Assembly (NCBI RefSeq): GCF_000835495.1
Contig: NW_015622545.1
Coordinates: 992,001 to 1,056,000 of the forward strand
DNA: 64,000 bases
Direction of reading: 5' to 3'
From: Cladophialophora immunda
Taxonomy: Eukaryota; Ascomycota; Eurotiomycetes; Chaetothyriales; Herpotrichiellaceae
How positions within the stretch are numbered: position 1 is the stretch's first letter; every line of letters begins with the position of its first letter. Made by a program: the position numbers and the translations under genes. The notes beneath the pieces are model-generated. The model was given only the letters and a program-made list of their open reading frames with translations. It did no database searches and was not told the origin of the DNA. Shown one piece after another: positions 19,346 through 44,345 of this stretch.

Positions 19346-19349
19346 GACC

Positions 19350-23985: not shown

Positions 23986-24735
23986 GGTCGACCTCCTTCT
24001 GGATCTGTTGAGTCAGGAGCATTCCGTTCGCACACCAAGCGAAGGAGTGGCGTCTACTGAAGGTCATCTGCAGAGACACAGGGCGAGGAGTCTCCAGTCT
24101 CGTGGCAGAAGAGCGAGTGAAAGCAAATATTCGGACGACGAGTTGCACGACATCCCCCTGCTGTTGCGCAGCCTGAACAACCACCAGTTGAACCCAAGTC
24201 GGTCATCGATCGAAGCGGTGGATGATAACCAAGAAGGAACCAAAGGAGCTGCCATTGCCATTGCTATCCACGCCGCATTCGGACACAGTAAAAGATCCAA
24301 CACCACCGAAAGATGAACTCACAGAACAGGATCGGGAGAAGCTGCTCCCAGACACGTCCCACCCTGAATCTGCCACTGCAGCTGGCGCCGGCGTTCCCCG
24401 ACCCCCACCGTTGAGCCCAAACAGTTCGTCTGCACCATGGTGTCATCGACCGCATGTCCACGACGGAGCCCCGGCGCCAAACCCTCGCGGTCTCGATGTT
24501 GTTGCAGTCCATGAACCGGTTCCCGATCAAGGGGTGAGGCCACAAGTGGGCGAGACCGAGCCCCCTCATCAAGACCGACGTCCTGGACCCCGATTCTGCA
24601 CGTGCAGACGCCCGCCCAGCGCCAGAGTCGTGTTCCTGGGCAAGAAAGTGGTCACCGACTCACCGCCTTCGTCAACCCAGAGTCTCCGAGCCCCAAACAG
24701 CACAAAGGTCATAAAGCTTGGATGACTGGGTGGTA
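23985..24735. other. No recognised gene; outside the left inverted-repeat arm
   Basis: Moderate-complexity DNA with open plus frames at 23891-24316 and 24222-24725, the latter Pro/Ser/Thr-rich. No domain recognised. I could not match this stretch to the sequence beyond the outer end of the right arm. Confidence 0.4.
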
Positions 24736-26179
24736 AACTTGGCCTCCAGACCGCCCACCATGGCAGGAAGATCAAAACGGCGGCAATGCCACAAAGCTTG
24801 GATGATTGAGCGTTGAACCTGGCCTCCAGACCTCCCTCCATTGTAGGAAGATCAAGAGAAGGGAAGGTTCGGGGCAGTGAAGGCGCAGTCGTCGACGATG
24901 ACGGCGTCGTAGCCAGCCAGGCCGGCAGTAACACCATTCCAGCTAGCCGTTGCCAGATGCCGAGAGTACCCAAGCATTTCCTCGACTCGTTGATGTCTGA
25001 GGGGTCCAAAACGTCAAGCCAAGGTACCGGCATGAGAGATTCAGGATGAACGGCGTGGCAGCCGACACATGGCGAACCAAAATACCACGGACATCCCAAG
25101 AGCTGGTCACTGCGCACAAACTGGCAGAGCGTTGGTCGCCAGCACCCGGTTGTCGAAAACCTCCATCAGCCAGCCCCTGAGCCTCGAAACAGCAAACATC
25201 GCAAAGCTTGGGGTGATGGAGCGTCCTGGGCTGAAAGAACCCACACCACTGCTGGCAGAGAGCCCCAAGGGAGGGCCTGAGGTTCGGAAGTGGCACGGAG
25301 TCGATGACGACGTCGCAGCCAGCCAGCAGCAGACACTCCGGCTGGCAGCCGCTGGGGAACTTCTTGACTGGACATCAGCGGCAACGTTGCAGCTACGCGG
25401 CACCACCATTCCAGCTGGCTGTTGACGAGACGGACGCTCGAATGGAGATCAGCGAGCGGGATCCGTCGCAGTCGTCTGGTCAGTTGCAGAGACCACCCAG
25501 GTACTCTCGAGTCATTGTGGCCTGGCAGTCTCAAGGCGACGTCGAAGCCAGCGTACCGTCCGGAGTCCAACAGCGTGACGCCGTGGCAACCAGGCAACCA
25601 AGATACCAACGCGTCGCCCAGGGGTATCAACGGTCACCAAGCCCGACGCGCAGGGAGACCAAAGTCGCCTGCCGTGGCCCAGGTGGCATGCATGGCCTTC
25701 CCTCGAACTCCACGGCCTCCACCGGCCAAGCCCAGGGTGATGTTGCTGCTGCCGGCCGATCTCAGGAAGGAATTCAATATGGTCAATGTCAAGACTGCGG
25801 CAAGCATTCGGTTTCGGCAAGGGCAGCGGAACTTGGCAAGGCTGCTGCACAACAACATCATCTGGACAAGATCATGCACGGAGATGGACACAGAACTGGT
25901 TGTCTTCCGGGCTTGTGGCTTCAATGGCTGGCTGCTGCCACCAACGGCAGCCAAGCAGACGAAGGCGTCACAACTCGACTTGGATCGATGCGGATTGACC
26001 ATGTCGGAGGTGCACAGCAGCGAGCAGACATGGCGGGCACCGCTGTCACCACGGAGTCGTGGATATTCCTCATGCCAAGACATAACGACATGCGCATGGC
26101 ACGCAGCTCTGGCGCCCCCACTCGGCTTGGATCGATTTGGGGGGAGCCCGGAGCCCGGACCAAGTCCAAAATCCAAAGT

Positions 26180-26880
26180 CCAAAGCCGGGACCACGTCCA
26201 AAATGCAAAATTACATCCAAAACGCCAAAACGACATGCAAAACCACATGCAGAATGCCAAAAACAGATGCAAAATGGAAAATCTACATCCAAAATGCCAA
26301 AACGACATGCATAACCATATAGAGAATGCCAAAATGACATCCAAAGTGCAAAAACTATATGGAAAATGCCAAAACGACGTCCAAAATGCCAGAACGACAT
26401 GCAAAACCATATGCAGAATGCCAAAACGACGTCCCGAGTGCCAAAACCACATGCAAAATGCCAGGATGGCGTCCGGGGTGCGGGGACTACGTCCAGGGGG
26501 CCCAGGGAGCATGCAAGGCTACATCTGGGGTGCCGAGGTTGCGTCCAAACTGCAAAAACCATATGTAAAATGCCAAAACGACGTCTGGAGTGCCAAACCA
26601 CATCCAAAACCACATCCAAAACGCCAAAATGATATGCAAAACCATATGCAAAGTGCTAAAACGACGTCCGGAGTGCCAACGCAATATCCAAAATGCAAAA
26701 CCCACATCCAAAACCACATCCAAAACGCCAAATGATATGCCAAACCACATCCAAAATACCAAAACGACATGCAAAACCATATGCAAAATGCCAAATCTAC
26801 ATCTAAAATGCCAAAACAACGTCCGGAGTGCTAAAACCACATCCAAAACCACGTCCAGGATGCCCCAACACACATCCAAA
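26180..26880. repeat. CAAAACGACATG 12-bp array
   Basis: Units alternate between CAAAACGACATG, CAAAACCACATC, CAGAATGC and CAAAATGC. The plus strand would read QNDMQNHMQNAK repeats and the minus strand WHFGCRFGILH-like repeats. It lies in the left arm between blocks that adjoin closely in the right arm, so it was inserted or expanded after the arms formed, or lost from the right arm. Confidence 0.8.
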
Positions 26881-28448
26881 TTCCAAACCAGGCGGCTCAG
26901 CAGCGGAGGAACCCATGCCGGCAGCCCAGCAGGCCAGAGAACGTCGTCGAGCACGGGGGACATGCAGGCTGGCCCACTGCGGACGCCCAAGCCCAAGTCT
27001 TGAGTCGACGAGGGCCGGGAGCCGGGGAGCGGGAGCGGCAGCGGCAGAGAATGACTTGGCTGGCTGGCTGGCGGGCTGGCAGGCCTATTCTCTCGTCCAG
27101 AAGGCCACTGTCGTGGAGGGCATCGTAGCACAGGCGTCGGAGTGGTGGTGGTGGGCGCAGGAGGTGAGGTCTGGCAGAATTTCCACCCCCCTCCTCCTTG
27201 GCCAACCCAACGACACGCCAGCGACCTCTTCGGTTGATATTCGGATCTTCGGATCGGCGCGGATTAACGTAACGGCGAGGCGCTAAGCGACTTTGGACAA
27301 GGCGTGGTCTTTGTTTCCACCACCATCAAACGACTTCATCCTTCACCATCACCACCACCCATTTTCTTTGTTGCAGCGGCGTTTGCATCGTCCACAGGTG
27401 ACAAACAGCAAGGTACGTGCATCTCCTGTCTCTCTCATGTCTGCATGCATCGCTAGGCAGGCTGTGCGTGTGTCTGTGTCGGTCGTTCGGCCGGTCCAGG
27501 GGGGTGGTCTCCTGCCTGCTCACCACACCGCCTTTGCACCTCAACAACATCTTTCTGAGGATGGCAATGGCTCTCCTGTCCTTTCTCTCTCTCCAGATGG
27601 CCGTCTTGTCGTCCTGCTTCGGCGTTGTGGGCTGCACGGCGGCTCAGGGGGAGGGTTTTCTGCCTGCTCACCTCACCACCTTTGCCCAGACGCCCACGGC
27701 ACCTTCAGATGTGCTCTCTCGACCTCCGAGGGTGGCTCTCGACGCCGGTCTTTTTGTTATGCATCTGTGGTGGCCGGTGAGGGGTGCTCTTCTGTTCTGG
27801 CCGCCTGTCTTCCGGTTTTCTGACCACCGCAGTTGATCTCCGGCCCTTCCACACCTCCTCCGCCGTCCGCTTCGTGTCCCAGATGGCGCTCGACTCCCCG
27901 ATGGAGCCCTGGTCCGCTCAGCAGGAGCGTATCGCCGCGAGGCCTCGACTGCAGGCGATCCCACCGCCGGGGGATGAGAAAGAGCAAGGGAGACACAGAA
28001 TGTACGTGCGTGGGAATCACACTTACCAGGCCCAGCCAGCACGCACACACGTCGAACCCAAGGCTGATGGCGGTGCATGCAAGGCGTTGGACCGCGTCTC
28101 GCACCGAAAGCCTTCCGCCCGCCCGCCCACGACACCGATGCAGATGACGCCGCAAGAGAGGAAAGCGATGCAAATGACGCCGCAATAGAGGAAATCGATG
28201 CAGCAAGACATGGAACTCGATACATATATACATTATCGATGCAAGAGATGGGAATTGGATGTACGTGGTCGGTGCGCTGATATGGGATCTGCGCGGTGGG
28301 CTTTGGGTGCCAGAGACCGCCCACACGGTTTGGCGCCCACGCCTGGAGTCTGTCGCCGCGGCATGCCCAGCAGCCACGTGTTGCCACCAGATGTCGTTGT
28401 GGTGCATGGTGGACGCAAGATGGTGCATGCTGCAGGCAAGATGTCGTT

Positions 28449-28548
28449 GACGCTGCATGGTGGTTGACGCTGCATGGTGGTTGACGCTGCATGGTGGTTG
28501 ACGCTGCATGGTGGTTGACGCTGCATGGTGGTTGACGCTGCATGGTGC
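28449..28548. repeat. 17-bp tandem repeat, about six copies
   Basis: GACGCTGCATGGTGGTT repeats without a mismatch at 28449, 28466, 28483, 28500 and 28517, with a partial sixth unit. Such purity suggests recent expansion. The right arm has only scattered pieces at the equivalent place (39230-39300). Confidence 0.95.
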
Positions 28549-29035
28549 AAGATGATGCTGCTGCATGGTGGACTCTGGTGCGTGCCGGAAAAGACATGCA
28601 GCCGGCGACCAGCAACGCCCATCAGCCACCGTGGCCCTTGTTCGCCCTCGTCACCACCGGGCGCGTCTCCCGGAAACGACAGCCGCTCGACGCCCACGCC
28701 GGGCCACGAACACACTCGTCCACTCGCCATCGACCCCTTCTCGTCGCCCAAACTCGACCAACTTTGCATTTTCCGGAAAAGTCACCCGCTCCACGCCCAT
28801 CTGCCAGCGAGAAATTCGACACTTGGCCGCCGCGACGACCAAAACTTTGCGTTTTCCGGAGTCCTTTTCCGTTTTGCCCGCAAATTCCACCCACAACGCC
28901 CAAACACACTCGCAATCCTGCAAAATCGGCACAATCGGCCGGAAAAATCACCCGCTCGACGCCACCCTTGCTCGCCTGCACTCCTGCAAACTCAATCCGC
29001 ACTCCAAACCTGCCAACTCAATCCTTCGCGATAAA

Positions 29036-29448
29036 CGAACGCACAATTCGACCTTCCTCGAGCACAACGACGACAACAAACCCGTTCAGGCTGAGAAGGG
29101 CCGTGGGAGCAAAGAGACAAGAGTGATGAAGAGGAAGGAGAGAGGAAAGACCTCTGTCGTGGGCATCGAGCTCATATTTATACCCAGGAGGCCCAAACGC
29201 CATAGATGCTATCATCATGACACCAGCCAATGCTATCACCAACGCCACCAAGTCCCCCGCCATCAGATACGAGGCCCCTGACGCCTGCATAATGCTCAAC
29301 ACCATGCCGCCGCCCATCACACCAGACCGCCAGCATCATGCCAGAACGCCAGGACCCCCAATTCCCCCAAAGACCAAAGACCAAAGTGCCAATTCCACGA
29401 GGACCAACGACAAGACCACCAAGTCCACAAAGACCAAAGACAAGAGCG
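29036..29448. other. Spacer between left arm and coiled-coil gene
   Basis: Contains CCAAAGACCAAAGACCAAAG and ACGAGGACCAACGACAAG low-complexity words. Probably the 3' flank of the minus-strand gene ending at 29449. Confidence 0.5.
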
Positions 29449-31467
29449 CTATTCCTCCTCCGACACCTCCGACTCGTCCTCCTCCTGCTCCCCCTCCTCC
29501 TCCACGCCCACGCCGGAAGGGCCAGGCCCGGTCTGCTCAACATCCCCCATCTCATCATCACTGCTGTCCGAGAGGATGATGGGATCCTCGACAGCGTTGT
29601 GGACCTTGTTGCCGCCGAGGATGGGAGGATCGACCGGGTTGAACTCCTTGCAGTCGCCCCGCCGCACCGCCGCCAACTCCTCGGCCGTCACGAGCGGCCC
29701 GGATCTCAGACAGAGATATTGCACCTGGGCGATGTGCACCTTTTGCTCGGCGAAGTCCAGTCCCAGGACCACGGGCGTCCACGGCGCCGTGGGCAGGGAG
29801 ACGAAGGTCTTGGGCTTCGACAACCGTGGCCGCGGGCCCGGGCCGGGGGGCCGGAAAAGAAGGCGAGCCTGGTCGGCGTGGTCGCCGTCGGGGCCGGAGA
29901 ACCGGAATTGCAGCTCTTCGTGTTGCAGGAGGACCGTGAATGCTTGCCGTGGGCGAACGGCCAGGGGAGGGTGGTCCGCCGCGGGGGCAAAGGCGTGGGG
30001 ATCGTCGACGACCTCGAAGACGTCCGTGAAGGTCTTCAGACGCCGGCCGAGGGTGTCGTGGGCCTGGCGGAGCCGGGGGATCCCCAGGTTGTCGGCGCGG
30101 AGGCGGTGGTTCTCCTTTTCGGTATTGTCGAGGCGCTGTTGGCGGTCGGCGTTGCCGGCGTGGATGTTCCGCGTGGCCGTGCGGAGGGCGTCAAAGACCA
30201 GTTGAAGGTGCGCGTTCTCGGCCCGCAAGCGCTCATTGTCGCCGCGAAGGATCCCATTGTCGGTTTCCAGGCCGTCGTTGTCCGCCTCCAGGCCCATGTT
30301 GTTGGCCAGCGCGTCGCCATGGGATTCCTGCAGCCGCGCATGCTCAATACGGAGGGCGAGATAGTCCGCCGTCACCGTGGTGTTCCTCCGTCTCAAGACC
30401 TGGATGTCCGCCGTCAGAGTGGTGTTCGTCTGTGTCAGCTCCTCCACGTTTTCGGTCTGAACGGTGTCCCGGACTGTCAGGCGTATATTTTGGCACCGCT
30501 CGCGGCGAAGCTCAAGTTGGAGATCTTCATGTTCGCCTCGGAGGATCCGGTTCTGCTCGGTCACAGTGTCGTGCTCCTGTGTCAAGTTTTGCACGTCCGC
30601 CGTCAGAGTGTCGTTCCTCTGTCTCAAGACCTGGATGTCCGCCGTCAGCGTGGTGTTCGTCTGTCTCAGGGTGTCCACCTGCTCTCCCAGATCCTCCACG
30701 TCGTGTTCCAGCACGGTTTCCCGGCCTCTCAGCTGTGTATTTTCCTCATGCAGCCTTTCCACCTCCTTTCTTAGGCCCTTCACCTCATCGACCAGCAATT
30801 TTTCCCTCTCTTCTATACCCTGTTTCATCGCGGAGAGCATCTTCCACAAGGGAATGGGCGCCGGGAGGGCGGTGGAGGAGGAGGAGGCGGGCTCGGGGGT
30901 TGCAGGACTCGCGGGGGTCGGTGGTTCGCCGTCTGGCATGCTCTTGCCGAGCTCGGGGGAGTCCATGACGAGGGTGGGGGACGTGCCAGGCTCGGGGGAG
31001 TCGGGAATCTCGACAATGTCGCCCGTGGGCGTGGCATTCGGCCGCTCGGAGCGGCGAACGCGAACTTGCCGAGGTCTTAGCATTCGCAAACGGAGAGTTG
31101 GGGGGGGGGGGGAGTGCGTACCTTTTGGGGGGGGAACATCATCGTCGTCCCCTCCCTCACGCGGACGAGTGTGCCGCCCGGAGCAGCCAACTGCCAAGGT
31201 CTGAGTATCCGCAAACGAAGAGTGGGTATAGGCGACCGGGGGGGGGGATTGCGTACCTTTTCCTTTTGGGGTGGGAACATCGTCGTCGTCGTCTCGATAC
31301 GGGCGAGTTTGGCGCGCGGCGGAGGGGCGCCCTGCCAAAGGTGTCAGCATTCGCAAACGGAGAGTGGGTATGGGCAAAATGGGGGGGGGGGGAAATTGCG
31401 TACACGGCGTCACGATGATGGTGTCGCCGTCTGGGGAAGCAGGTCGGTGCAAAGGCGAGGAGGCCAT
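29449..31467 (-). CDS. Coiled-coil protein with triplicated intron-exon module
   Basis: The frame is open for 672 codons. I predict three phase-1 introns near the 5' end (31403-31332, 31256-31191, 31121-31065; 72, 66 and 57 nt); splicing gives 607 residues. Because all three lengths are multiples of three and lack stops, retention would keep the frame. Exons 2 and 3 encode related peptides (RQTRPYRDDDDDVPTPK and RHTRPREGGDDDDVPPPK). Spliced residues ~145-410 form a long coiled coil with repeated TNTTLTADIQVLR; the C-terminal ~190 residues contain an unrecognised conserved-looking region and a very acidic tail. DIVEIPDSPE (~85) and DPIILSDSSDDE near the C-terminus resemble SUMO-interacting motifs (inference). 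Family unknown. It shares the segment between the inverted-repeat arms with MAT1-2-1. Confidence 0.7.
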   Translation of the reverse strand: MASSPLHRPASPDGDTIIVTPCTQFPPPPILPIPTLRLRMLTPLAGRPSAARQTRPYRDDDDDVPTPKGKGTQSPPPVAYTHSSFADTQTLAVGCSGRHTRPREGGDDDDVPPPKGTHSPPPPTLRLRMLRPRQVRVRRSERPNATPTGDIVEIPDSPEPGTSPTLVMDSPELGKSMPDGEPPTPASPATPEPASSSSTALPAPIPLWKMLSAMKQGIEEREKLLVDEVKGLRKEVERLHEENTQLRGRETVLEHDVEDLGEQVDTLRQTNTTLTADIQVLRQRNDTLTADVQNLTQEHDTVTEQNRILRGEHEDLQLELRRERCQNIRLTVRDTVQTENVEELTQTNTTLTADIQVLRRRNTTVTADYLALRIEHARLQESHGDALANNMGLEADNDGLETDNGILRGDNERLRAENAHLQLVFDALRTATRNIHAGNADRQQRLDNTEKENHRLRADNLGIPRLRQAHDTLGRRLKTFTDVFEVVDDPHAFAPAADHPPLAVRPRQAFTVLLQHEELQFRFSGPDGDHADQARLLFRPPGPGPRPRLSKPKTFVSLPTAPWTPVVLGLDFAEQKVHIAQVQYLCLRSGPLVTAEELAAVRRGDCKEFNPVDPPILGGNKVHNAVEDPIILSDSSDDEMGDVEQTGPGPSGVGVEEEGEQEEDESEVSEEE
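31065..31403 (-). other. Three near-identical short introns with interleaved exons
   Basis: Each intron starts GTACGCA, runs into 8-14 C residues, contains ACTCTCCGTTTGCGAATGCT or a close variant, and ends near ACCTTGGCAG. Intron 1 has a CTGAC branch-like site; introns 2 and 3 have weaker CTCAG and CTAAG. The 75-nt and 69-nt exons between them also resemble each other, so an intron+exon module was duplicated in tandem. The C runs appear as G runs on the plus strand. Confidence 0.75.
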
Positions 31468-32520
31468 TGTGGGCAGGCAATGACCAAGAAAGGTACCTCG
31501 GTGGTGGTACTAAAATGGCTTTGTCGACTAAAAAGAGGTAGACTTCGCCGGGGCCGAAGTCAGCAGGTAAGCGAAAATGGTGCAATGGAGCCAAGATTGG
31601 AGCGGATGATGGAGGCGAAGGATGATTGTGAAAGATCTTGAGATCGAGGGGGAAATCTCGAGTTTAAATGCTTTGCGGGGCCCCTCTCTGGACGGTGATA
31701 TCAAAAAGGTATGTTCTGTCTCTCCCCCTCTCTCCCAGCCCATCACGGCCGATCCCAGTCCATCACATTGTCCCAACCCTCAACAAATTCCTGTTTTTCT
31801 CGTATCCAAAACGCCCCCAACAGGGATCGAAGTGTGGTGTTGCATTTGAACCGTGGGTGGTTGTCATGTGCACCGCCCTCGACCGGCGGCGCTACGGGCT
31901 TGGCCCTCAGCCCGGGGGTGGGGGCGCGGAGGATCCGAGCAGCGCCCACCGAGCCAATGGGTCGACGAGGAGCGACGTCGGCGGTCTCGGCCACCCCCAG
32001 CTTGGAAGGTCGCTGGATGGTCAGCTCCATTGTCCGCGCGATCATTGGCTTCATGGTCGCCTGGAGAGTTTGCCGGATTGTTTGCTTGATCGCATGCTTG
32101 ATTCGCTGCCTGATGGGACGCTCGCGGGCAACGCCCGACTACTGGCTCGACGGTCTCCGCCAGGGGACCCCGATGGCCCCGCGGGTGGATCCCGATGGTG
32201 GGTGTGATTGTGTGCTTGATTGGCTGCCTCATTGTCTCCTTTTGTTCAGCTGGTTTCAGCTTCGTTTGCTAGTCTGGCCACTAGTTTCAGAGCCACTCCG
32301 CCCCCTTTCCAGCCAGCCAACCACACGGCCCCATCACACCACAGGTTATCCCCGCCCGCCCAGCCGTGCTCTCAAATATTTGGAAGGGTGGGCCCGTCAC
32401 CAAGTCAACCAGCCAATCACCGCGTCAACCAGCCTGATTCCATCGGATTCCATCTGATTTCGTGTCGTCATGACTTTTTGCCACCCCACACCGCCAGACG
32501 CCACCAATTTCCCTTCCCGC
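31468..32520. other. Intergenic region between coiled-coil gene and MAT1-2-1
   Basis: Upstream of the minus-strand coiled-coil gene. Contains CT-rich tracts (31710-31760 on plus) and short repeats such as TTGCTTGATCGCATGCTTGA and GATTGGCTGCCTCATTG (32075-32235). No gene recognised. Confidence 0.5.
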
Positions 32521-32753
32521 CCCCCCCCAATTTCCCCCTTTCTCCCAGCCCCCTTCCCCCTTCGCCCTCGCCCTCGCCCTCCCCCCTTCCCCCCTCGCCC
32601 TCTCTCTCTTTTTTTCTTTCTCTTTTTTTTTCTCTCTCTGTGTGTGTGGGTGTGTGTGTGTGTCCCCCCCCTTCTCTCTCTCTGTGTGTGTGTCTCCCCC
32701 CCTCTCTCTTTCTGTGTGTGTGTGTGTCTTTCTCTTGCCCTGCCCCTCCCCTT
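32520..32753. repeat. Pyrimidine-rich and GTGTGT low-complexity tract
   Basis: C/T runs and TGTGTGTGTG blocks with CTCTCTCTCTGTGTGTG immediately 3' of the MAT1-2-1 stop codon. It may hold the 3' UTR, but no polyadenylation signal is evident. Confidence 0.85.
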
Positions 32754-34154
32754 TCACTCCAACATCCACAGGACCCGGTCCAACTCGGCCTGGAACTTGG
32801 CCCGCTCGGCGCTGCTGTCGAACTGCAAGGTCTCGAGGGGCTGGTGCTGGTGGTGGTTGTTCGTAGCAGTGGTAGTCGTAGTCGTAGTCGTAGCAGCCGC
32901 CGGCTTGAGCGACTCGTGCACCAGCAGGGCGTCGGCCTTGATGGCGTCCCAGTCGACCAGCGAGCTCATGAAGTCGTCGGCCGCGACGGAGGACCAGGTC
33001 GCCCGCGCAAAGGGGCCCGAGTGGTACCGCGTCGTCGCCTCGTCGTCGACCCCGATGACCATCTCGTCCGCGGCCGTCACGTGCTGGAAGCGCGCCATCT
33101 TCGTGGCGTAGTCGTGCTCGACGTGGCTGTGCCCGGCCGGCAAGATCACCGACATCTCGCCTTGGTGGCCGTGTCGGATGTGGCTGGGGAGGTGCGCACG
33201 CTCGCTGCCCATCAGCCACGTGGCGGAAATCTCTTGGCCCTCGCCGAAGAAGTGCGGTGCGGCGCTGACTCCGCGCGCAGCCTCGTCCATCGCCTTGCTG
33301 CGGTGACGCTCAGCTTCGTCAATCTCAGTGACATCCGTCATCTCAAGATCAGAACCAGATTGAGATTCGGTTTCTGCCTTGGCAGCGCGAGAAGCAGCGA
33401 GTTTCCGTGCCGTCATACGACGCTTCTTCTCGGATGGTTTGCGTGGAGCATACTGATAACCTGGATTCTCTGCTGCGTGCTGAGCTTTGATGTTGTCTGC
33501 CAACTCTTTGAACTGTGCTCGAACTTGTTCAGACTCCTCCCTCCATCTTTTCCCAAGGATGACTGAGATCTCATTGTTTGACAGTGCAGGCTTTACATCC
33601 TTGAGCGTGGGATGATGTTTGGCTCGGTAGAGAATGAATGCATTGGGCGGACGAGGAACTTTTGATTTTTTGCCAGGCAAGCGAATGGACTTGACCGGCG
33701 ACCCCTTGTTCAAACGTGCACGCTTGGGGGCTGGAGTGGGACTTGAGGTAGACATCATGGACTGATCTGAAGCCGATCGTGGCGGAGAGCTGCTCATGTC
33801 GGGCAGACCATTTCCGGTCGCGGGGAGTTCATGAGCCAGGCGAATGCGACAGACTTCAGCTGAGTGATCAACAAGTATAACAGCAGGAGCATTGTTGAAG
33901 TAGGCGCTACAAGAAGTTAGCAGAGAGCAATTGTTGTCTGGAGATTCTTACCTGAAGCGCGAACGAAGATCCGTAATGTTGGCTTCGCTGAGATTGATCG
34001 CCATGAAGTATGGAATCACCAACTCATTCTTGTTAGCGGTGAATGAGGCAACACCCATCTGCCACATGATGTCCATTTGGGCTTTGCTCAATCCAACTGG
34101 CACCGAGTTTGCTTGGCCTTTGGCATCAAGCACAGGGTTGGAAATGTCCTCCAT
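32754..34154 (-). CDS. MAT1-2-1: Mating-type protein MAT1-2-1 (MATA_HMG box transcription factor)
   Basis: Two coding exons, 34154-33952 and 33906-32754, joined across a 45-nt intron (33951-33907: GTAAGAATC, branch GCTAAC, TTGTAG), give 451 residues. The first ATG after a 5'-UTR intron is 34154. Residues ~151-220 are an HMG box: VPRPPNAFILYR, LSNNEISVILGKRWREE, AQFKELADNIK, NPGYQYAPRKPSEKKRR. This is the MATA_HMG subfamily that specifies the MAT1-2 idiomorph and acts in the nucleus with the alpha-box MAT1-1-1 protein to control mating genes. The N-terminal 100 residues (ELVIPYFMAINLSEANITDL...) resemble MAT1-2-1 N-termini. The C-terminal ~220 residues are variable, with an NHHQHQ-containing Thr-rich stretch. 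The intron usually found at a Ser codon inside the box is absent. No APN2 or SLA2 was seen nearby. Confidence 0.92.
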
Positions 34155-34167
34155 CCTGGAAGAGCTT

Positions 34168-34212: not shown

Positions 34213-34224
34213 GGTGCGATCTGA

Positions 34225-34350
34225 GGTGTTTCGTTCAGGGGACTTTGATGCTGACGGCTTGAATTGAGACAATGGAGTGAGTGAGAGAGATGAGAGGGAG
34301 TAAGATTGCTGAGAGGAGAGATTTATGTGAAAAGCCGTTGAAGTCGAAAG
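34225..34350 (-). promoter_or_regulatory. CT-rich 5' region of MAT1-2-1
   Basis: Minus-strand tract with TCTCTCCTCTCAGC and CTCTCATCTCTCTCACTCAC, typical of fungal core promoters and transcript starts. CACATAAATC just upstream could act as a weak TATA-like element. Confidence 0.4.
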
Positions 34351-35333: not shown

Positions 35334-35789
35334 CTCTTGCAGTTGTCCCTCAAACGGTATGTCATCAACCCCGATGGACCGATTCATTCTCCATCATTCT
35401 ATATTGCAGTGCACTCAAGGCTGACCGGCTTGCCAAATCAGGTTACTTCTCCTTCCGCCGCCCAGTGGATGATCAGCGCCCAGGCCGCCTACGCCCCAGA
35501 GGAGCAGCAGTCGCCCACATCGGCCGGCAGTCCCGCATCCACTCCCAGCCTGATCCTCGACACCGCCCATGACCATGAGAGCCCTCGCTTCACCGACTAT
35601 CTCACCATTGACGCCGTCAATGCCGACCAGCAGGCCGCATATGCGCGCACCAACGGTCCTTCCCAGGCTGCGCTGCATTTCCACCCCCAAATCTGCCCCC
35701 CGATCTTGGGATTTGATCCCCGGGTCATCCAAGACGACTTCGATCCGTTCAACCTGGATCTGTTCGCGTTCCAACCAAACCGCAAGTGA
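35334..35789 (+). CDS. Hypothetical C-terminal exon or remnant, head-to-head with MAT1-2-1
   Basis: Open for about 150 codons with no ATG start. GTATGTCATC at 35356 looks like a splice donor, and GATGATCAG ending near 35477 is an acceptor that keeps the downstream frame. From AQAAYAPEEQQSP onward the protein is Ser/Thr/Pro-rich, then ends with PILGFDPRVIQDDFDPFNLD and LFAFQPNRK before a stop. The terminal motif reminds me of C-termini of MAT1-1-1 proteins in some Pezizomycotina, but that is a weak recollection and no alpha box was found upstream. It could be an idiomorph remnant or an unrelated MAT1-2-specific gene. Confidence 0.3.
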   Translation, partial: LLQLSLKRYVINPDGPIHSPSFYIAVHSRLTGLPNQVTSPSAAQWMISAQAAYAPEEQQSPTSAGSPASTPSLILDTAHDHESPRFTDYLTIDAVNADQQAAYARTNGPSQAALHFHPQICPPILGFDPRVIQDDFDPFNLDLFAFQPNRK

Positions 35790-36279
35790 AGAGCATGGCA
35801 CGGCACACAGGGGCATGGCGGTGCACAAGACGCAAGGGAGGTTCCGGTGGCGGGCGGTCCTGATCTTGGACTGGTGAGCAAACACACACATGGGGGGGAC
35901 GCACACACAACATAGGCGCTGAGAGTGCAGCTGCGGGGGGCATTGCATGGAGGCAAGCTTGGGCGGGGAAGCCTGGAGGATGGGCCACAGCTTTGGGCAT
36001 GGGAGCAGCCTGGAGCATGGGGGGGCAAGCCTAGAGCATGGGCAGCAGAAATAAGCATGAGCGTAGGCCTGTGCTTAGGGATGAAGTAAATAATTGGAAG
36101 TATGCCTGGGCATGGGAAGCAGCCTGGAGTTTGGGGGGCGGCATTAGGCATGGGAGTAGCCTAGAGCTTGGGGCGGGGAAGCCTGGAGTTTGGGGGCGTG
36201 GGAAGGGAATAATTTTCGTTAGCACCCTTGTGGAATCTTTGCCGACTCACCATCGTCATTTGATTGTCATTTGGTGAGA
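35790..36279. repeat. GCCTGGAGCATGGG repeats
   Basis: 35960-36200 repeats GAAGCCTGGAGTTTGGGGG, GCAGCCTGGAGCATGGG and related words six or so times. No gene. Confidence 0.6.
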
Positions 36280-36339
36280 TGCCAAGACATAACGACATGC
36301 CAAGACATAACAACATGCTCATGTCGTTATGTCTTGGCA
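36280..36339. repeat. Perfect 20-bp inverted repeat with 20-base loop
   Basis: TGCCAAGACATAACGACATG at 36280-36299 is exactly complementary to 36320-36339. The stem word also occurs singly in the left arm (about 26081), as a mutated form in the right arm (about 40500), and as variants near 1515 and 1806. Confidence 0.9.
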
Positions 36340-37657
36340 CGCAGCTCTGGAATCTTGGGGGGGGGGTGAGGGAGAGAGAGGGGAATGCCCGTGACGCCTG
36401 TGGCATCTGCCTCTGCCTCTGCCTCTGCCTCCAAGCCCAGAGCCCAGAGAAAAAGGGGGAATCTCGGGGGTGCAGAATCTCGTCCGAGTTTCAAGCGCAG
36501 AGAGGAACGGGAAGGTTGTCTCCTTCTCAGAACATTGGCGGGGCGTTGTTGACTCACCTCCATAGGCCATGGCCCCTCTGTCCAGGACCCGTACACACGC
36601 GTGACTCCAGAGGTTCCATCCCACCATCCGACCAGAAGCCTATTCCATCCACCACATGTCGGGTGTATTGGTGATGAGCGTCCCTGGCAAAAGGTGCAAA
36701 GGAGGGTGGTTCCACAGGTGCAAAAGGGGGGGTGGTTCCACAGCTGGAGCAGAAGGTCAAAAAGCAAGTCAGCAGCGAAGTTCTTGCTCAGACCGCCCCC
36801 TCTTTCTGAGCGCCAGGTCTCAGCTTGTTTGTGGGTGTGTGGATTTTCCCCCTCCGCACGTCGACGCCAGAGGGCAGAGAAGTGTCCCGAAGGAGCCTGA
36901 TGACGCGAGGTGCAGGGGGAGAATTGGAAAAAGAACCAGAAAAATTCAAAGCGGGGTGGGAGAATTGGAAAAAGAACCAGCAAAATCAAGGCGGGGAGCC
37001 GCCCGTCAACGCCACCGACTCCCGTGCAACTCCCGGCGGCCAATCCCATCACCGCGAGGACATGCATTGACTGCACAGGTGAAACACAGGTGCAGCCAGC
37101 TGAGCAGAAATACGAGGTCCCTGCAGCCAAAAAGCAATATCGAGACATACCTATGCACCGGACTTGGACAAGTTCCATGCATCATCGGAGCAGAATACGA
37201 GTTCCCTGCAGCCAAAAGCAATCAGAACATATCTGTGCACCGGACTTGGAAAAGGTCCATGCATGAAGTTGCAAAAGGTCCCTGCAGCCAAAAAGCAATA
37301 TCAGAAACATACCTATGCATCAAGGTGCAATAGTTCCATGCATCATGCACCCCGAAAGGGTAATTGAAGAGGAGGAGTTTTGCCAGTTCCGTGCATCATC
37401 ATCTGAGCAGAAGACGAGTATGAAGCAGCCCCAAGTCCAAGGCCCTGTCATCTTAAAGGCTGTGTCATCTGCCCCGTGTTGCAATCAGATCTGTGAGAAA
37501 CCAGGAAGAAAGAAGTCCAAGGCCTCTCATCTCAAAGGCCCTATCTCAAAGGCCCTGTCTCAAAAGACCCTGTCTCAAAGGCCCTGTCATCTGCCCGGTG
37601 TTGCAATCCGATCTTTGAGCATACCTCTTCCGGGAAACACTTACGAGAGAGACAGCC
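36340..37657. repeat. Tandem duplications upstream of the C2H2 gene
   Basis: 36915-37000: GAGAATTGGAAAAAGAACCA twice, about 51 bp apart. 37112-37360: about three units of 80-87 bp with TCCCTGCAGCCAAAAAGC and GTTCCATGCATCAT. 37440-37600: AAGGCCCTGTCTCAAA units. 36400-36430 is a CTGCCTCTGCCTCTGCCTC tract. No gene supported. Confidence 0.7.
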
Positions 37658-38923
37658 ATGGACGGTCCATATCCTTGCTCGAGGTGTCCACGGAGATTTG
37701 CCCGCAAAGCATATCTCGCTAACCACATGAGAGCACACCGGGCTGGACCACCATACGTATGCCCAACCTGCACCAAACCGCTCAACAACAAGCTCGACTA
37801 CCAGAGTCACCTCAAGTGCCACGATAGCAAGCGCCCGTGGCAGCCGTGTCCGAAAGAGGGCTGCGATCGGGCATTTCGACGCGTGGACGTCTTGCAACGG
37901 CACATTGAAGACCACGACAACCCGGCCCGCCGGCGGATCCAGTGTCCTCAAGAGGGGTGCGACAAGTCATATGTCCACAAGGCCGACTTGAAACGGCACA
38001 TGGTGTACCACGACCAGAATAGCCGGGGCATCCCTTGTCCTCACGAGGGCTGCCACAAGGCATTTATCCGCACGGACCACTGGAGAGAGCACCTCAAACA
38101 CCATGACAACAGCCGGCTGAAAGCGTGTCCAAAAGAGGGCTGCCGTCGGGCATATATCCGCCCGCAGAACTTGAAACGGCACATCGAATCCCACGACAAG
38201 ACCCGCCGGCGGCTCAAGTGTCCTGCAGCGGGCTGCGATATGTCGTATACCCTCCCGGGCAACTTGACACGGCACATCGAATCCCACGACGAGAACCGCC
38301 CGAGGAAAACGTGTCCGGAAGTGGGCTGCGACAAGTCATATACCCGCGCGGACCACTTGACCACGCACATCAGGTCGGCCCATCACCGCATTGCCAGCTT
38401 TCGGTGTAGCGACTGTCAGCAAGGGGGGTTCAGTCGGGCCGCGACGAGAGACCGGCACCAAAGGTACCACTGCCGTAAAGCACGGGCGCGCCGAGCAGCC
38501 CAGAATCTTCCACCCGAGACGGCTCCCCAACCCATGACATTTTTGCGACCTTCAGGTTCACATCTGGAGCTGCCGTGGGACTCGCATCGGGTGGAGGAGC
38601 TGCTGAACGGATATCGTCAGGTGGAGGAGCTGCCGTGGGAGTCGCATCAGGTGGACGAGCTCTTCCAGGAGTCGCATCTGGTGGAGGAGCTCTTCCAGGA
38701 GTCACATCTGGTGGAGGAGCTGGTGCCCGAGTGTCGTCAGGTAGAAGAGATGCTTTGGGAGTATCATCAGGTAGAAGAGATGCTGCCTGAGTGTCGCCAG
38801 GTAGAGATGCTTTGGGAGTATCACCAGCTCGACATGCCGTTCTATATACCTTTACACGCGGATGGTATTGGCGCCGGCCCATCTGTGGAGTTTGCGGCGT
38901 TTGCCCCGGAGCCGGGAAGTTGA
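37658..38923 (+). CDS. Nine-finger C2H2 zinc-finger protein with C-terminal decapeptide repeat
   Basis: A single exon of 421 residues from ATG 37658. Residues 7-271 form nine C2H2 fingers. Fingers 3-8 have the TFIIIA-like spacing C-x4-C-x12-H (for example CPKEGCDRAFRRVDVLQRH) and are joined by short basic linkers; finger 9 (CSDCQQGGFSR...) is shorter. Residues 301-390 are nine tandem 10-residue units (QVEELPWESH, LVEELFQESH, QVEEMLPECR), matching 30-bp DNA repeats; their acidic, amphipathic pattern could serve as an activation or interaction surface (inference). Likely a nuclear DNA- or RNA-binding protein; the target is unknown. Its stop lies at the inner edge of the right inverted-repeat arm, 3.5 kb from the MAT1-2-1 start codon. 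Confidence 0.75.
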   Translation: MDGPYPCSRCPRRFARKAYLANHMRAHRAGPPYVCPTCTKPLNNKLDYQSHLKCHDSKRPWQPCPKEGCDRAFRRVDVLQRHIEDHDNPARRRIQCPQEGCDKSYVHKADLKRHMVYHDQNSRGIPCPHEGCHKAFIRTDHWREHLKHHDNSRLKACPKEGCRRAYIRPQNLKRHIESHDKTRRRLKCPAAGCDMSYTLPGNLTRHIESHDENRPRKTCPEVGCDKSYTRADHLTTHIRSAHHRIASFRCSDCQQGGFSRAATRDRHQRYHCRKARARRAAQNLPPETAPQPMTFLRPSGSHLELPWDSHRVEELLNGYRQVEELPWESHQVDELFQESHLVEELFQESHLVEELVPECRQVEEMLWEYHQVEEMLPECRQVEMLWEYHQLDMPFYIPLHADGIGAGPSVEFAAFAPEPGS

Positions 38924-41900
38924 CGGGGCCGCCACGTTGGCTGCTGGGTGCAGGTTTGGCGTCGAGCGGGTGATTTTTCCGGAAAATGCAAACTTTGTTC
39001 GAGTTTGGCGAGGAAAAGGCGGCGGTGCGAGTCGATGGGCGTCGGTGGGCGGGCGTAGCGCGAGGCGACGGCGTGGTCGAGCGGGTGTCTTTTCCGGGAG
39101 ACGCGCCCGGTGGTCGGTCGAGGGTGTTGGACCAAGGCCCACGGTGGGCGATGGCGAGTTGCTGGGTGCCCTGCGCGCCGCCGATGGGTGTCGCCCGCAT
39201 GTCTTTTCCGGCACATCTTGCTTGCAGCATCACCATCAACCACCATGGATCCACCACCATCTTGCTTGCAGCATCCACCATCTTGCATCGACAATGTGTA
39301 TATGCATCGCGTTCCATCTCTTGCGGCATCGGTTTCCTCTCTGGCGGCGTCATCTGCATCGGGTTCGTGGGCGGGCGGTTGGTCAGAAAAACCGGAAGAC
39401 GGGCGGCCAGAACAGAAGAGCACCCCTCACCGGCCACCACAGATGCATCACGCGATGACCGGCGTCGAGAGCCACCCTCGGAGGTCGGGAGAGCCATCGC
39501 CATCCTCGAAAGGTGCTGTTGGGGTGCAAAGGCGGTGAGGTGAGCAGCCAGGAGACCACCCCCCCTGGACCGGCCGAACGACCGACACAGACACACGCAC
39601 AGCCTGCCCAGCGATGCATGGCGACATGGAAGAGACGGGAGATGCATGGACCTTGCCGTTGGTGCACGTCGGGACGGTGCAAACGCCTCTGCAACAAAGA
39701 AAATGCCGGTGGTGGGTGGTGATGGTGAAGGATGAAGTCGTTGACGGTCGTGGGAACAAAGACCGCGCCTTGTGCCAAAGTCGCCTAGCGGATCGCCTTC
39801 ACGTTGATCCGATCCGAATGTCCGACTGTCCGAAGAGCCGAATATCGACCGAAGAGTCGCTGGCGTGTCGTTGGGGGGGAATTCTGCCAGACCATACCTC
39901 CAGCGCGCACCACCACCACTCCGGCGCCTGTACGGCGATGCCCACCACCACGGTGGCCTTCTGGGCGAGAGGGCAAGCTAGCCTAGCCGCCCATGGCCGC
40001 CAAAACTCGATGGTGGAAGTGTGTGTGCCCGTTGGTGCTGGGGGGGGAGCGGCGGGACGGGGCCCTCCAACTCTGGGCTGACTTCCATGCATCTGGCATG
40101 CAGACGTCACTGGCCGGCGAGAAGGGCTTGGACGCAAAGATGGCCGACTGGTCCATGCCGCTTTAGCGTGCGGGAAAGCCAGAGGGCTCGCCGTCGTGGT
40201 TGGCAAAGGCCGTCCCGGGTGCTGCGGGTGGTCGGGGCTCTGCAGCAACGAGGAAAACCACCACCGGCATTCGTTCCTCCGCTGCTGGGCCCGCCTGGTT
40301 GGGATTTGGATGGGATTTGGATGGGATGTGGATCCGCTGCGGCTGTTGGTGCTGCTGCTGGAGCGGGATGGGGAGGTGGTGGGTGCATGTTGGCCCGGCT
40401 GCTCGCAAGATGCTCATGGGATGTGGCACCCGAAGCCTCCGACTTCTCCTCGACGACTCCAGATCGATCCAAGCCGAGTGGTGGCGCCAGAGCTGCGTGC
40501 CAAGGCAGAACGACATGCCGATGTCGTTGTCGTGGTGTCTGCTTGCTGCTGTGCATCTCCGACACGGCCGACATGATGAATCCGCATCGATCCAAGTCCA
40601 GTGGTGACGACATGGCCTGCTCGGACGGCGTGGCCAGCGAGACGGACTTGGCTGCCGCAGGAAATGATGCCGACGGGGCAGGCAGGGTGCTTGCTTGGCC
40701 GAGAGGCGTCGAAAGGTCAAAGTCTCCATGTATGGCCAGCGTCCTGCGTGCGTAGGAACCATACGATGCTGCGGCATCAACGAAGGGTTGTCGTGGAAAG
40801 AAGTCGACGGCGAGCACCCGGGCACGAGCTTGCCTCAGCGTACGGCTTTCGAAGGAGACCATCCATTCCCATCCTGGTTGACAGAGCAGCTGTGACGAAC
40901 GCTCGCCGGCGTGAAGAGATTGTGCCTGGCCTGGTAGATTCTGCACCTCGATGATCAATGAGAGGCAGTGATCTCTGCTCAGAGGCGCCGAGAATCGGAC
41001 ACCTTGGTACCGAGAACGAGAAGCTTGCTGGCAATGGCGTCACCAGTCAACATCTTGACGCTGAGACCGAGGTTTGGGGCTCCAAGATGGTAAGTGGGTT
41101 GGCTGTCATGACCGGCCTGGTCTGCACGGCAGTGGTCGTTGGTGGCAGCAGCCAGCCATTGAAGCCACAGGCCCGGAAGACAGCCAGTTGTGTATCCATC
41201 TCCGTGCATGCTCTTTTCCAGATGATGTTGTTGTTGTTGTGCAGCAAGCAGCCTTGCCAAGTTCCGCTGCCCTTGCCGAAACGGAATGCTTACCTCAGTC
41301 TTGACATTGGCCATGTTGAATTCCTTCCTGAGATCGGCCGACAGCAGCAACGTCACCCTGGGCTCGGCCGGTGGAGGTCGTGGAGGTCGAGCGAGGGTAC
41401 ATGCCCGCCGGGCCACGAGAAGCAAAGGCAGACGGTCTGTCCTTGTGGCAGAGGCGTCGTGTCCTCTCCACGAGTGGGCGATCCGGGGGTGATGTTGCCA
41501 TCCCTGCAGGGTCAGTGCATTTGTCACGGGCGGAGGGGACTGCAGTATACTTACCATGGGGGTCGACCATTGTGAAGAACCTCGATCTTTGCTGCATCGT
41601 TCAACGAAGGACACTGTCGGTGCTTGGTGAGGTAGGAGGAGGAACCGCTGGAACAAGGAAAGAGGCCGCAATGGCCTGAGAGTCGTATTGACTCCATTGC
41701 CTTGATGGCGTGTGTGTGGTGTTGGGGCTGGCAGTCATGGCGGCAAGGGGGTAAGCCCTTCGTCCCGCCCCACGGCCATCAGCGAAGTGTCGACCACTAG
41801 CAAGATTGTCTGGACGTCGAGGCCGTTGAGCATGACGAGCACCAGTGAGAAAGTCAAGAGATGCTGAGCTTGCCGTCCTTCCACCAAGATCCAAGTATGG

Positions 41901-42054
41901 TATGGTATGGAGCCCACCTCTTGAGAGTCGTCTTGACACGAATGCCTTGATGGCATGTGTGTGTGCTATGTTGGGCTGTCCCTGAGGACTCTGAGAAGGA
42001 GAGAGGGGAGGGAGCTGCGTCGAGTGCAGGAGAAGTCGGTGGGCAGCCCATCCT

Positions 42055-42660
42055 GACAGTGGAAGAGATGCTGGTGGTCATCTCAACAGCAAAAGACGTG
42101 CTGGAGGTCATCCTGACAAGGGAAGTGGTGCTGGAAATCGTCGTGGCAGGGGAACAGGTGCTGAAAGTCATCGTGGCAGAAGAAGAGATGCTGAAGGTCA
42201 ACCTGACAGAAGAAGAGGTGTTGGAAGAGGTGCTGGAGGTCATGTCAACAGCAAAGGTGGTGCTGAAGGTCATCCAACAGCAAAAGTGGTGCTGGAGGTC
42301 ATCCTGCCAGGGGAACAGGTGCAGGAAGAGGTGCTGGAGGTCGTCTCGACAGCAAAAGTGGTGCAAGGGGTCATCCTGACAGTGGAAGAGAGGTGCTGGA
42401 AGTCATCGAGGCAGAAGAAGAGGTGCTCAAGGCCATGGAAGAGGTGCTGGAGACCTATCTTAACAGCAAAGGTGGTGCTGGAGGTCATCCCAATAGGAGA
42501 ACAGGTGCTGGAAGAGGTGCTGGAGGTCATCCCAACAGTGGAAGAGAGATGCTGAAGGTCATCGTGGCAGAAGAAGAGGTGCTGGAGGTCATCTCAACAG
42601 CAAAAGTGGTGCAGGATGTCATCCTGACAGGGGAACAGGGGATGGAAGAGGTGCTGGAGG
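42055..42660. repeat. 30-bp minisatellite, about 20 units
   Basis: Units like GTGCTGGAGGTCATCCTGAC plus AGCAAAAGTG or AGGGGAACAG. Thirty bases keep the frame, so the plus strand would encode VLEVIL(T/S)A(K/E)-type decapeptides, interrupted by a few frameshifts. It is present only in the right arm. Confidence 0.85.
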
Positions 42661-42899
42661 TCATATCACCCCGATCTCTTGCAGCCATGCAGTCAACTTG
42701 ATGGGAGAGGGTGACGCTTGATGGGAGAGGGTGAGGCTGCGTCGAGGATGGGGGCGCAGAGGACAGGAGAAAGGGAAGGAGGCTGTGCCTGGCGTCCACG
42801 TGCATACTGGGCACGTGTCCACGTGTATGCTATGCAGACTGCGCTGGCAAACTGCGCAGGGAGGCAGACTGCGCTGCTTGGTGGCTGCGGTGCTTGCTG

Positions 42900-43190
42900 T
42901 CCAGCTGTTCCTGTGCAGGCGGTGTTCGCTGTGTATCCATTGTTACTGTCCAGCTTTGTTTGCTATTGATGCTGTTGATCCTGTCCAGCTGTTGATCCTG
43001 TGCAGCTTTGTTTGCTACGCAGCCTTGTCTGCTACGCCGTTCATTCCTGGGCTCGCCGTGCGGCCATTGTTCCTGTCCAGCGTTGTTTGCTGTCCAGATG
43101 TCCGTTCCTGCGCAGCAACTGTCCCTGTGCAGCTTTTTTGCTGTCCAGCTGACCGTTCCTGTGCGGCAACTGTCCCTATGCATCTATGTA
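42900..43190. repeat. CTGTCCAGCTTTGTTTGC repeats
   Basis: Imperfect units with GTTCCTGTCCAGC, TTTGTTTGCTGTCCAG and GATCCTGTGCAGC. Right arm only. Confidence 0.7.
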
Positions 43191-43199
43191 GTTCGATTC

Positions 43200-43955
43200 T
43201 CTCTCTGCGGCCATACCGAGTCGATCGAGAAAAGAGGTCTGAGCACCATCTTCCATAAGACACTCGGTACAGTAGCCCTCTCGATGCCCACCCACTCTTC
43301 CAACCCTCCTCCGTACCTCTGACCCGCAGCTGGTCGAACAGGATCGACTTCAGCATGCCATGGATCCAGAAGCCTTCGAAAGGAAACCCGAGCATCACCA
43401 AAGGGTTTGTGGGTGGACAGTCCCGTCAAATTCTCGGGGATGGCGTCCAAGAAGACCAGAACGTCGCTCGTCTACGAGAAATGCACCGTGGTGCTTCATT
43501 CCGGTTTCATGGCCGGTCAAAGGGCAAGAGGAAGTCAATATAGTGGTAACTGGAAAACACGCTCAGGTTTGCATTTTCCTACACGCATGTTCGCCATCTC
43601 GAACTTGGACTGACATGAGCATCACAGACGGCACCAGAAGACGAAAATTCCCTTGCTGTTTCCTGCCCTAACGCCATTCTGTCAGCATTCAAAGACACAA
43701 AACGTTACATGTTGGGTTGCGGAGGCGGACATACCCAGAAGAAGAGGGCGAGCCCGAAATGCCGAGGAAATGGACGTCTCCAGAGCCTTCGCTGGGTGTT
43801 GGACATCGTCTGACATCCTCTTGTTCCCTTGGAGGGTCTCGACGGCGCTGCCAGCCTTGCAGAGGACGACGTCGATCGTGGTCCAGCGAGCCATTGCTTC
43901 AAAACAGCGATGACCAACTCGTGACACCCCCAAACCGAACGACGGTGAGAACGCC
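43200..43955. other. Unrecognised sequence in right arm insertion
   Basis: Non-repetitive. A minus frame around 43184-43450 reads MDAIPENLTGLSTHKPFGDA, and another reads MLGFPFEGFWIHGML. They look protein-like but are short and unassigned. Confidence 0.35.
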
Positions 43956-44345
43956 AGCCCCAGCCGTCGGCTGCCACGCCGTTCACCCTGAATCTCTCAT
44001 GCCGGTACCTTGGGCTTGACGTTTTGGATCCCTCAGACATCCACGGGTCGAGGGAATGCTTTGGTGCTCTCGGCATCTGGCAATTGATAGCCGGAATGGC
44101 GTTGCTGACCATAACGACGGGTCGAGTGACTGCTGCAGCTTCGCAACAAGCTGTAATGGTGTTGCTGCCGGGCTGGCTGGCTACGACGCCGTCAGCGTCG
44201 ACGGCTGCGCCTTCACAGCCCCGAACCCTCCCTTCTCTTGATCTTCCTGCAATGTTGGGCGGTCTGGAGGCCATGTTCAACGCTCAATCGTCCAAACTTT
44301 GTGACATTGCTGCTATTTGATCTTCCTGCGATGGAGGGCGGTCTT

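Follow-up and report, generated by a model that had tools for sequence, protein, structure and literature searches.

In the black fungus Cladophialophora immunda, the mating-type gene MAT1-2-1 is flanked by two inverted arms of about 4-5 kb, at 24694-28797 (left) and 38958-44351 (right) of the 64,000-nucleotide stretch of DNA that we analyzed (hereafter, the window). The arms probably belong to a set of at least three decayed copies (L, the left arm; R, the right arm; T, a third copy) of one ancestral multi-kilobase segment, in the neighborhood of MAT on the contig C5, which holds a local swarm of old segmental duplications. They need no present function, and it is unlikely that they form a working mating-type switch, because they have the look of old, decayed repeat copies, and the repeat occurs at other places on this chromosome too. 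Their location is still of interest: the MAT gene is surrounded by old duplications, and one family of these is largely confined to a single contig.

The mirrored arms and the enclosed segment

The mirrored arrangement around MAT1-2-1 had been proposed by eye, and a blastn comparison of the window with itself confirms it, giving seven mirrored, collinear blocks (Table 1; the weaker blocks come from further alignments). Together these blocks comprise 1,715 aligned bases at 86.6% identity; 28 gaps are opened in the alignment, and they add up to 269 bases. The chained score of the pair is 1,684 bits and that of its best block 500 bits; in 100 dinucleotide shuffles of both arms, the highest single score was 31.9 bits. 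The figures of the original prediction hold as well, namely seven or more blocks, identity down to about 75%, and about 90% in the block at 25.7-25.9 kb. So does the enclosed segment with MAT1-2-1, a coiled-coil gene, and a C2H2 gene, which had been put at about 9.9 kb and measures about 10.2 kb. Overlooked by eye were copy T, relatives of the right arm at C5:1401-1404k and 1422k, and the many old duplications in both orientations around MAT.

MAT1-2-1 matches C. immunda CLAIMM_14216 over its full length (438 of 472 alignment columns identical, 21 columns being gaps), and among seven HMG loci compared it ranks first for nine of nine MAT1-2-type query proteins. It is the one MAT gene, and the one MAT-type HMG gene, that we found; the PF04769 (alpha-box family) profile gave no match here, and likewise none in the control genomes. 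A protein search with the coiled-coil ORF scored 7,991 candidates and found no relative at E ≤ 0.001, and the C2H2 ORF has a 73% DNA match over 282 bases at C1:2738194.

Table 1. Features in and around the inverted arms (window positions)
Feature	Position	Strand	Right-arm partner	Strand	Identity or remark
Module outside left arm, mirror-placed	16700-19900	-			Related to 45.6-49.4 kb, mostly not its closest relative
Block A	24694-25066	+	43966-44351	-	82-90% (blastn)
Block B	25673-25946	+	41137-41417	-	87.7% with gaps, 91.1% of aligned bases
Two short blocks	25951-26140	+	40459-40624	-	
Left-arm minisatellite	26139-26921	+			In copy T at 96159-97012 (window numbering)
Block C	27090-27582	+	39482-39971	-	82% with gaps, 87% of aligned bases
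Block D	27645-27830	+	39375-39567	-	
Block E	28119-28246	+	39281-39378	-	
Block F, innermost	28609-28797	+	38958-39165	-	76% with gaps, 78% of aligned bases
Coiled-coil ORF, 672 aa	29449-31467	-			
MAT1-2-1 (HMG box)	32754-34154	-			Intron ~33909-33953, inferred from CLAIMM_14216
C2H2 zinc-finger ORF, 421 aa	37658-38923	+			
Right-arm minisatellite	42042-42734	-			In copy T at 95118-95608 (window numbering)
Repeat module outside right arm	45600-49400	+			

Runs of N occur in the flanks of the window, which might suggest an assembly artefact. The window itself is free of N, however, and the arms differ at 13% of their aligned bases, which neither mis-joining nor collapse would produce; an artefact is thus extremely improbable.

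Copies of the arms elsewhere

Copy T, a partial copy at C5:1086.9-1089.5k that adjoins a RIP-mutated AT-rich repeat, has its blocks in an order compatible with that of the arms and includes the start of block C. The right arm has further relatives at about C5:1401.1-1403.8k (68-88% identity, largely in the same order) and at C5:1422k. In other words, copies with blocks in the same order exist outside the pair, as expected of a decayed duplication. Each copy has diverged and lost sequence independently. The left-arm minisatellite matches the right arm in its last ~57 bases only, the right-arm minisatellite has no match in the left arm in the arm alignment, and minisatellites have been lost in different copies. 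Private changes in the segment shared by all three number 22 in R, 15 in T, and 12 in L.

In this three-way comparison, which covers only about 300 shared bases, the identity of aligned bases is 88.3% for L-T (35 of 299 differ), 85.7% for L-R (37 of 259), and 83.7% for R-T (49 of 301). Gapped blastn, which compares stretches of unequal length, reverses the order (L-R 82.1%, L-T 78.8%, R-T 76.1%). The aligned-base values for L-T and L-R do not differ significantly, and therefore indicate no special likeness of L to R, nor the reverse. The arms are not clearly closer to each other than to the outside copy, and neither value is near identity, so the testable segment bears no sign of homogenisation. 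The blocks differ in identity (78-91%; chi-square P = 0.0006), a spread that would allow for an old event of local conversion. Of the readings offered with the original prediction, that of simply an old duplication is the one supported, by the third copy, the many indels, the moderate identity, and this lack of homogenisation.

The same prediction would have failed if the arms belonged to a family equally common across the genome. For the left arm, three stretches were searched genome-wide (24690-25070, 25640-25960, and 27050-28800), and the listed matches are the two arms, copy T, and one weak place of 96 bp on C7; the lists hold the best candidates only, and all counts are lower bounds. Left block A matches just its two arm places among the matches listed, and the C7 place belongs to left block B. 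A genome-wide repeat family is thus ruled out for these three stretches; it holds in part for the right arm, where 13 of 56 listed matches are on other contigs and part of block B also weakly matches C2 (71%).

The divergence does not bear the mark of repeat-induced point mutation (RIP). The arms differ by 115 transitions and 115 transversions at a GC content of 58%, with neither a transition excess nor AT enrichment, and decay by RIP is thereby ruled out. A nearby AT-rich pair of 5.6 kb, by comparison, is of the RIP type, with 549 transitions against 5 transversions and a GC content of 31-34%. Duplications without a RIP mark beside heavily RIP-mutated repeats are a further notable feature of this MAT locus. 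They bear also on the idea that a transposable element inserted twice, in opposite orientations, and left the arms as its remnants. The several partial copies on C5 would fit such an element, as would the RIP-mutated neighbor of T; but few copies were found, the one frame scanned in block B gave no Pfam match, and the arms have escaped RIP although the genome has RIP-type repeats. We regard a transposon origin as distinctly improbable.

A repeat-rich neighborhood

The part of the right-hand module at 47000-49320 has 102 listed genome matches (itself included), 96 of them on C5 and 90 at C5:850-1200k. Most bins of the whole module (45.6-49.4 kb) are closest to other copies, for example at C5:936.5-937.0k (90.4% over 481 bp). 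A larger palindrome of 16.7-49.4 kb was accordingly rejected: its outer mirror consists of family members that are mostly not mutual closest relatives.

Among all chains in 264 kb, the MAT arm pair ranks sixth, and the top three are AT-rich repeats; chains about as strong as the arm pair occur close by. With the MAT pair counted, compact inverted chains (those with a gap of at most 15 kb) enclose 34% of the 120 kb from -60 to +60 kb when the cutoff is 600 bits, and 24% when it is 700 bits with 80% identity. Raising the score cutoff to 1,000 bits, still with 80% identity, leaves the MAT pair as the sole compact inverted pair in the 264 kb; it encloses 8.5% of the 120 kb. In so dense a local swarm of duplications, no cause specific to MAT is needed to explain why it is bracketed; on the other hand, no other compact inverted pair in the 264 kb is as strong, and placement around MAT by chance is therefore not certain.

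That strength, the seven mirrored blocks in one order, and the higher L-R identity in gapped blastn would all suit a single inverted duplication that made a palindrome around MAT, whose arms then decayed in place, with T as an independent older copy. This history is quite unlikely, since by aligned bases L is no farther from T than from R and the modules outside the arms are not a specific pair. On the preferred reading, that of a swarm of old duplications, the copies would have arisen by repeated local duplication in both orientations and then diverged through point mutation and deletion. MAT, lying where such pairs are dense, would thereby have come to be flanked by two copies that face each other. 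One physical consequence is likely, namely occasional local instability, since what homology is left comes in short pieces.

The arms could also belong to a non-recombining MAT region, in which inversions and duplications would accumulate because crossing-over is suppressed. Several observations are consistent with this: the confinement of the module family largely to C5:850-1200k around MAT; the distance of 699 kb between MAT1-2-1 and SLA2 on the same contig; the outcome of a Pfam search with a selection of 10 among 46 long flanking ORFs, nine without a match and one with a match below threshold; and the orientation of the C5 matches of at least 100 bits to the left of MAT, all 26 of which, among those listed, are opposite to the right-hand module. 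However, the orientation of that module is shared by six weaker left-hand matches (47-88 bits), and to the right of MAT the matches of at least 100 bits are mixed (6 same, 4 opposite). Moreover, the data represent one mating type, other gene-poor regions may look alike, and C5:850-1200k may be ordinary for a gene-poor region of this genome. We hold this explanation to be about as unlikely as the single inverted duplication. Both it and the transposon origin are compatible with the old-duplication reading, and the probabilities given here need not sum to one. APN2, sought as a landmark, was not located: the single zinc-ribbon GRF match lies on C7, in a frame that we take to encode an AlkB-like protein.

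Comparison with known mating-type systems

That the arms recombine and so invert the MAT segment, now or in the recent past, is an option raised with the original prediction; it is suggested by geometry alone, that is, by facing arms on either side of the MAT gene. The 86.6% identity, the longest exact inverted match of 49 bp, the 28 gap openings, the lack of homogenisation, and the single MAT gene found all argue against it, as does the fact that L is no closer to R than to the distant T over the ~300 comparable bases. The known systems compared below carry identical or nearly identical repeats. We consider such a flip-flop very improbable.

In Ogataea/Hansenula polymorpha, the repeats IR1 and IR2 are 2,049 bp long, identical, and situated at two MAT loci (PMC4238957). 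The arms described here are likewise kilobase inverted repeats at MAT, but they are decayed, far from the near-identity of the methylotrophic-yeast repeats, and one MAT gene was found. Sclerotinia sclerotiorum offers a case of inverted repeats flanking MAT sequence within the Pezizomycotina; there, identical 250-bp inverted repeats from MAT1-1-1 overlap the MAT genes, and 3.6 kb is inverted (PMC3574095). Unlike these, the present arms are 4-5 kb long, similar in blocks, and outside MAT1-2-1, with no exact run beyond 49 bp. The flip/flop region of Saccharomyces chromosome XIV has inverted repeats of ~4 kb that are 97.6% identical and continually homogenised (PMC9731477). The likeness lies in ~4 kb inverted repeats tens of kb apart; here, unlike there, the segment compared puts a copy outside the pair about as close to an arm as its partner is. 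A MAT region of unusual make-up also recalls the suppression of recombination reported around ascomycete MAT loci (PMC9949647), although one mating type is represented here. A working inversion device of this sort, which the arms very probably are not, would amount to a novel type of mating-type switch for filamentous fungi.

Teixeira et al. 2017 is reportedly the key genome paper for the Chaetothyriales. In this order, the location of MAT is extremely variable and SLA2 does not adjoin it, as in C. immunda; the available parts of the accounts describe flanking genes, without inverted arms or a repeat swarm (PMC8900376, PMC7263672). Our literature search, which included the accessible parts of the C. 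immunda genome paper and a further article (PMC5595782, PMC10569646), returned no report on Cladophialophora or related fungi that describes inverted arms at MAT, and a published account may exist. How mating-type regions expand is a question that those of black fungi make testable.

Rows of short pieces

A side observation, stranger than the arms, is that pieces of 34-201 bp matching different chromosomes stand end to end in rows; such rows are another notable feature of MAT here. A coding origin found no Pfam match in the eight frames tried, and our literature search for such patchwork rows in fungi returned none. The MAT region might be a sink for copied DNA, with modules in both orientations and rows of pieces that are not RIP-marked, the arms being one product and a non-recombining mating-type region possibly in the making; we think this rather unlikely. 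Among 11 joins between pieces, six overlap by 1-4 bases, one is blunt, and four are gapped (1, 2, 2, and 12 bases); the short overlaps are as expected of replication-based template switching.

The mating-type gene and its inverted arms

Two arms, L on the left and R on the right, are inverted around the mating-type gene as the original prediction had proposed, and a blastn comparison of arm with arm recovered the mirrored chain of blocks; the arms are a real structure. Seven block alignments give an identity of 86.6% across 1,715 aligned bases and contain 28 gap openings that amount to 269 gap bases, and dinucleotide shuffles of both arms (n = 100) reached a top score of 31.9 bits. Identity ranges from 78% to 91% among blocks, a heterogeneity beyond chance (P = 0.0006), and the K2P distance between the arms is 0.148. 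Their cause is most likely ordinary, namely decayed segmental duplications that face each other across MAT by happenstance.

The window spans C5:992001-1056000 (C5 being the contig that carries MAT) in a genome of 42.2 Mb and 39 contigs. The HMG gene between the arms shares 438 identical residues with CLAIMM_14216 over 472 alignment columns, 21 of which are gaps, and among the seven HMG loci compared it is the top match for 9/9 MAT1-2-type queries, including three named Aspergillus MAT1-2 entries. These two results led us to take it as MAT1-2-1, in which the alignment gap points to a single intron of about 45 bases, and to place the organism in or near C. immunda (Chaetothyriales). A search lacking a working control found no alpha-box gene, and the neighboring coiled-coil frame has no relative at E ≤ 0.001 among 7,991 candidates scored.

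It was also suggested that the arms might permit active inversion of the MAT segment, which we now regard as very unlikely. In known MAT systems, inversion uses identical repeats, those of Sclerotinia being 250 bp long (PMC3574095) and those of Ogataea 2,049 bp (PMC4238957), whereas the longest exact run shared by the arms is 49 bp; the flip/flop repeats of Saccharomyces are 97.6% identical (PMC9731477), well above the overall identity of the arms. Moreover, only a single MAT gene was identified between the arms; an exchange of mating-type information by inversion is accordingly not expected.

Features of the MAT region (window numbering unless a contig is named)
Feature	Position	Strand	Remarks
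HMG gene, taken as MAT1-2-1	32754-34154	minus	full-length match to C. immunda CLAIMM_14216
Coiled-coil ORF	29449-31467		672 aa, beside MAT
Arms L; R	24694-28797; 38958-44351
Block B (L/R)	25673-25946/41137-41417
Block C (L/R)	27090-27582/39482-39971
Third, partial arm copy T	C5:1086.9-1089.5k
Tandem array	28426-28561		17-bp unit, inside left arm
Tandem array	683-1436		period mostly 71 bp
Repeat module	47000-49320		directly outside right arm
Degenerate minisatellites	4500-5500, 8187-8330, 12500-14000, 17400-18100, 47400-48400, 54000-54700
AT-rich repeat pair	C5:928951-934518; C5:1089477-1095045		5.57 kb, 90% identical
Open frame	-3109 to 691		1,266 aa; in-window part has SET match just below Pfam cut-off
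Row outside the arms	57926-58726		C1, C3, C3 (186 bases further on), C6, C3 (other place), C1, C2 with C5
Row in right arm	43189-43728		C3, C5, C5, C7, C7 at 84-90%
Piece pair in right arm	40867-41098		C2, C7; overlap 1

Further copies and age of the arms

The arm pair is not exclusive to MAT. Genome searches with the left arm covered three stretches: 24690-25070 matched the two arms alone, 25640-25960 matched both arms and, weakly, 96 bp of contig C7, and 27050-28800 matched both arms and C5:1089162-1089477. The whole right arm (39280-44360) has at least 56 matches, of which 43 of those listed fall on C5 and the other 13 elsewhere in the genome, among them a 71% match on C2 inside block B, a series at C5:1401.1-1403.8k with order largely kept (68-88%), and C5:1422.1-1422.8k. 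In the partial copy T, at 95.1-97.5 kb in window numbering, a right-arm minisatellite is followed by a left-arm minisatellite and the start of block C, an order compatible with that of the arms. From this order and content, L, R, and T are copies of one ancestral segment, and each has lost different parts of it.

In the segment of about 300 bases common to all three, L-T identity is 88.3% (35 differences in 299 aligned bases), L-R 85.7% (37 in 259), and R-T 83.7% (49 in 301); L carries 12 private changes, R 22, and T 15. When gaps are counted by blastn over unequal stretches, L-R comes first instead: L-R 82.1%, L-T 78.8%, and R-T 76.1%. Neither difference is large, and the comparison shows that L and R were not maintained near-identical.

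The match to T stops at the exact base where the second AT-rich repeat starts. Between the two members of this AT-rich pair, 549 transitions stand beside 5 transversions, with concordant RIP indices, indicating that RIP has acted in this lineage; the pair looks like textbook RIP and, by its transversions (0.09%), is young. The arms bear no RIP mark and no excess of transitions (115 transitions, 115 transversions), and with 6.7% transversions they are by this measure far older. An old multi-kilobase duplication is free of RIP in a genome that otherwise has it. Possibly the arms were never both long and identical while a sexual cycle took place, or their origin may lie in an asexual phase.

The repeat setting around MAT

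The setting around MAT merits greater attention than the arms themselves. Self-match coverage, averaged over four-kilobase bins in 264 kb (the window plus flanks), has a mean of 54% in the 29 bins from -60 to +56 kb versus 18% in the 27 bins from +56 to +164 kb. Of all match chains in the 264 kb, five rank above the MAT pair, the first three being AT-rich repeats. There are six compact inverted chains (at least 600 bits, inner gap at most 15 kb), the MAT pair counted; five fall within -60 to +60 kb and enclose 34% of that stretch. Raising the thresholds to 700 bits and 80% identity leaves three chains, which enclose 24%, so that enclosure of MAT by such a pair is unremarkable in this region. 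The MAT pair is nonetheless the strongest: at 1,000 bits it is the sole compact inverted chain, with 8.5% enclosed.

The right-hand repeat module has at least 102 genome matches (self counted); 96/102 of those listed are on C5 and 90/102 at C5:850-1200k. A related copy (8187-8330) encodes a zf-CCHC zinc knuckle. Left of MAT, all 26 listed C5 matches of at least 100 bits are opposite to the module in orientation, and six weaker ones (47-88 bits) share it; on the right, six listed matches of at least 100 bits, self left out, have the same orientation and four the opposite. The best flip point falls in a broad range, 20-45 kb, for which 78-80% of the matched length is consistent, and is driven largely by this one module, matched many times. 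Because its closest relatives are scattered, an outer mirror as part of a single palindrome was rejected. Strong minisatellite matches left of MAT are likewise reversed relative to the copies at 47-55 kb.

Among ten flanking ORFs, picked out of 46 of at least 250 aa in the 264 kb, nine had no Pfam match and one a sub-threshold F-box. APN2 was not located; an SLA2-type domain (I_LWEQ) lies on the same contig at C5:1724970, 699 kb from MAT, as in some other Chaetothyriales, where SLA2 is also away from MAT (PMC8900376, PMC7263672). The distant SLA2 and few ORF matches fit a gene-poor, expanded region.

Rows of short pieces

More unusual than the arms are rows of short pieces, whose joins, set by BLAST ends, are approximate. 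The row outside the arms consists of abutting pieces of 34-201 bp that match other places at 86-97%, and it has six joins: four with overlaps of 2-4 bases, one blunt, and one with a gap of 2 bases. The remaining parts of this query also matched dispersed repeats. The row in the right arm has one overlap of 3 and three gaps of 1, 2, and 12 bases; arm against arm, neither it nor the piece pair has a left-arm match. For eight other loci (25.6 kb in total; two on C5), chosen for gene matches, the 264 kb contained no match. A 3-kb stretch of C7, a biased choice made for its block B match, gave two outside matches, which both fall on C5. A 75-bp piece in the MAT spacer (36461-36535) is 97% identical to C8:562245-562317.
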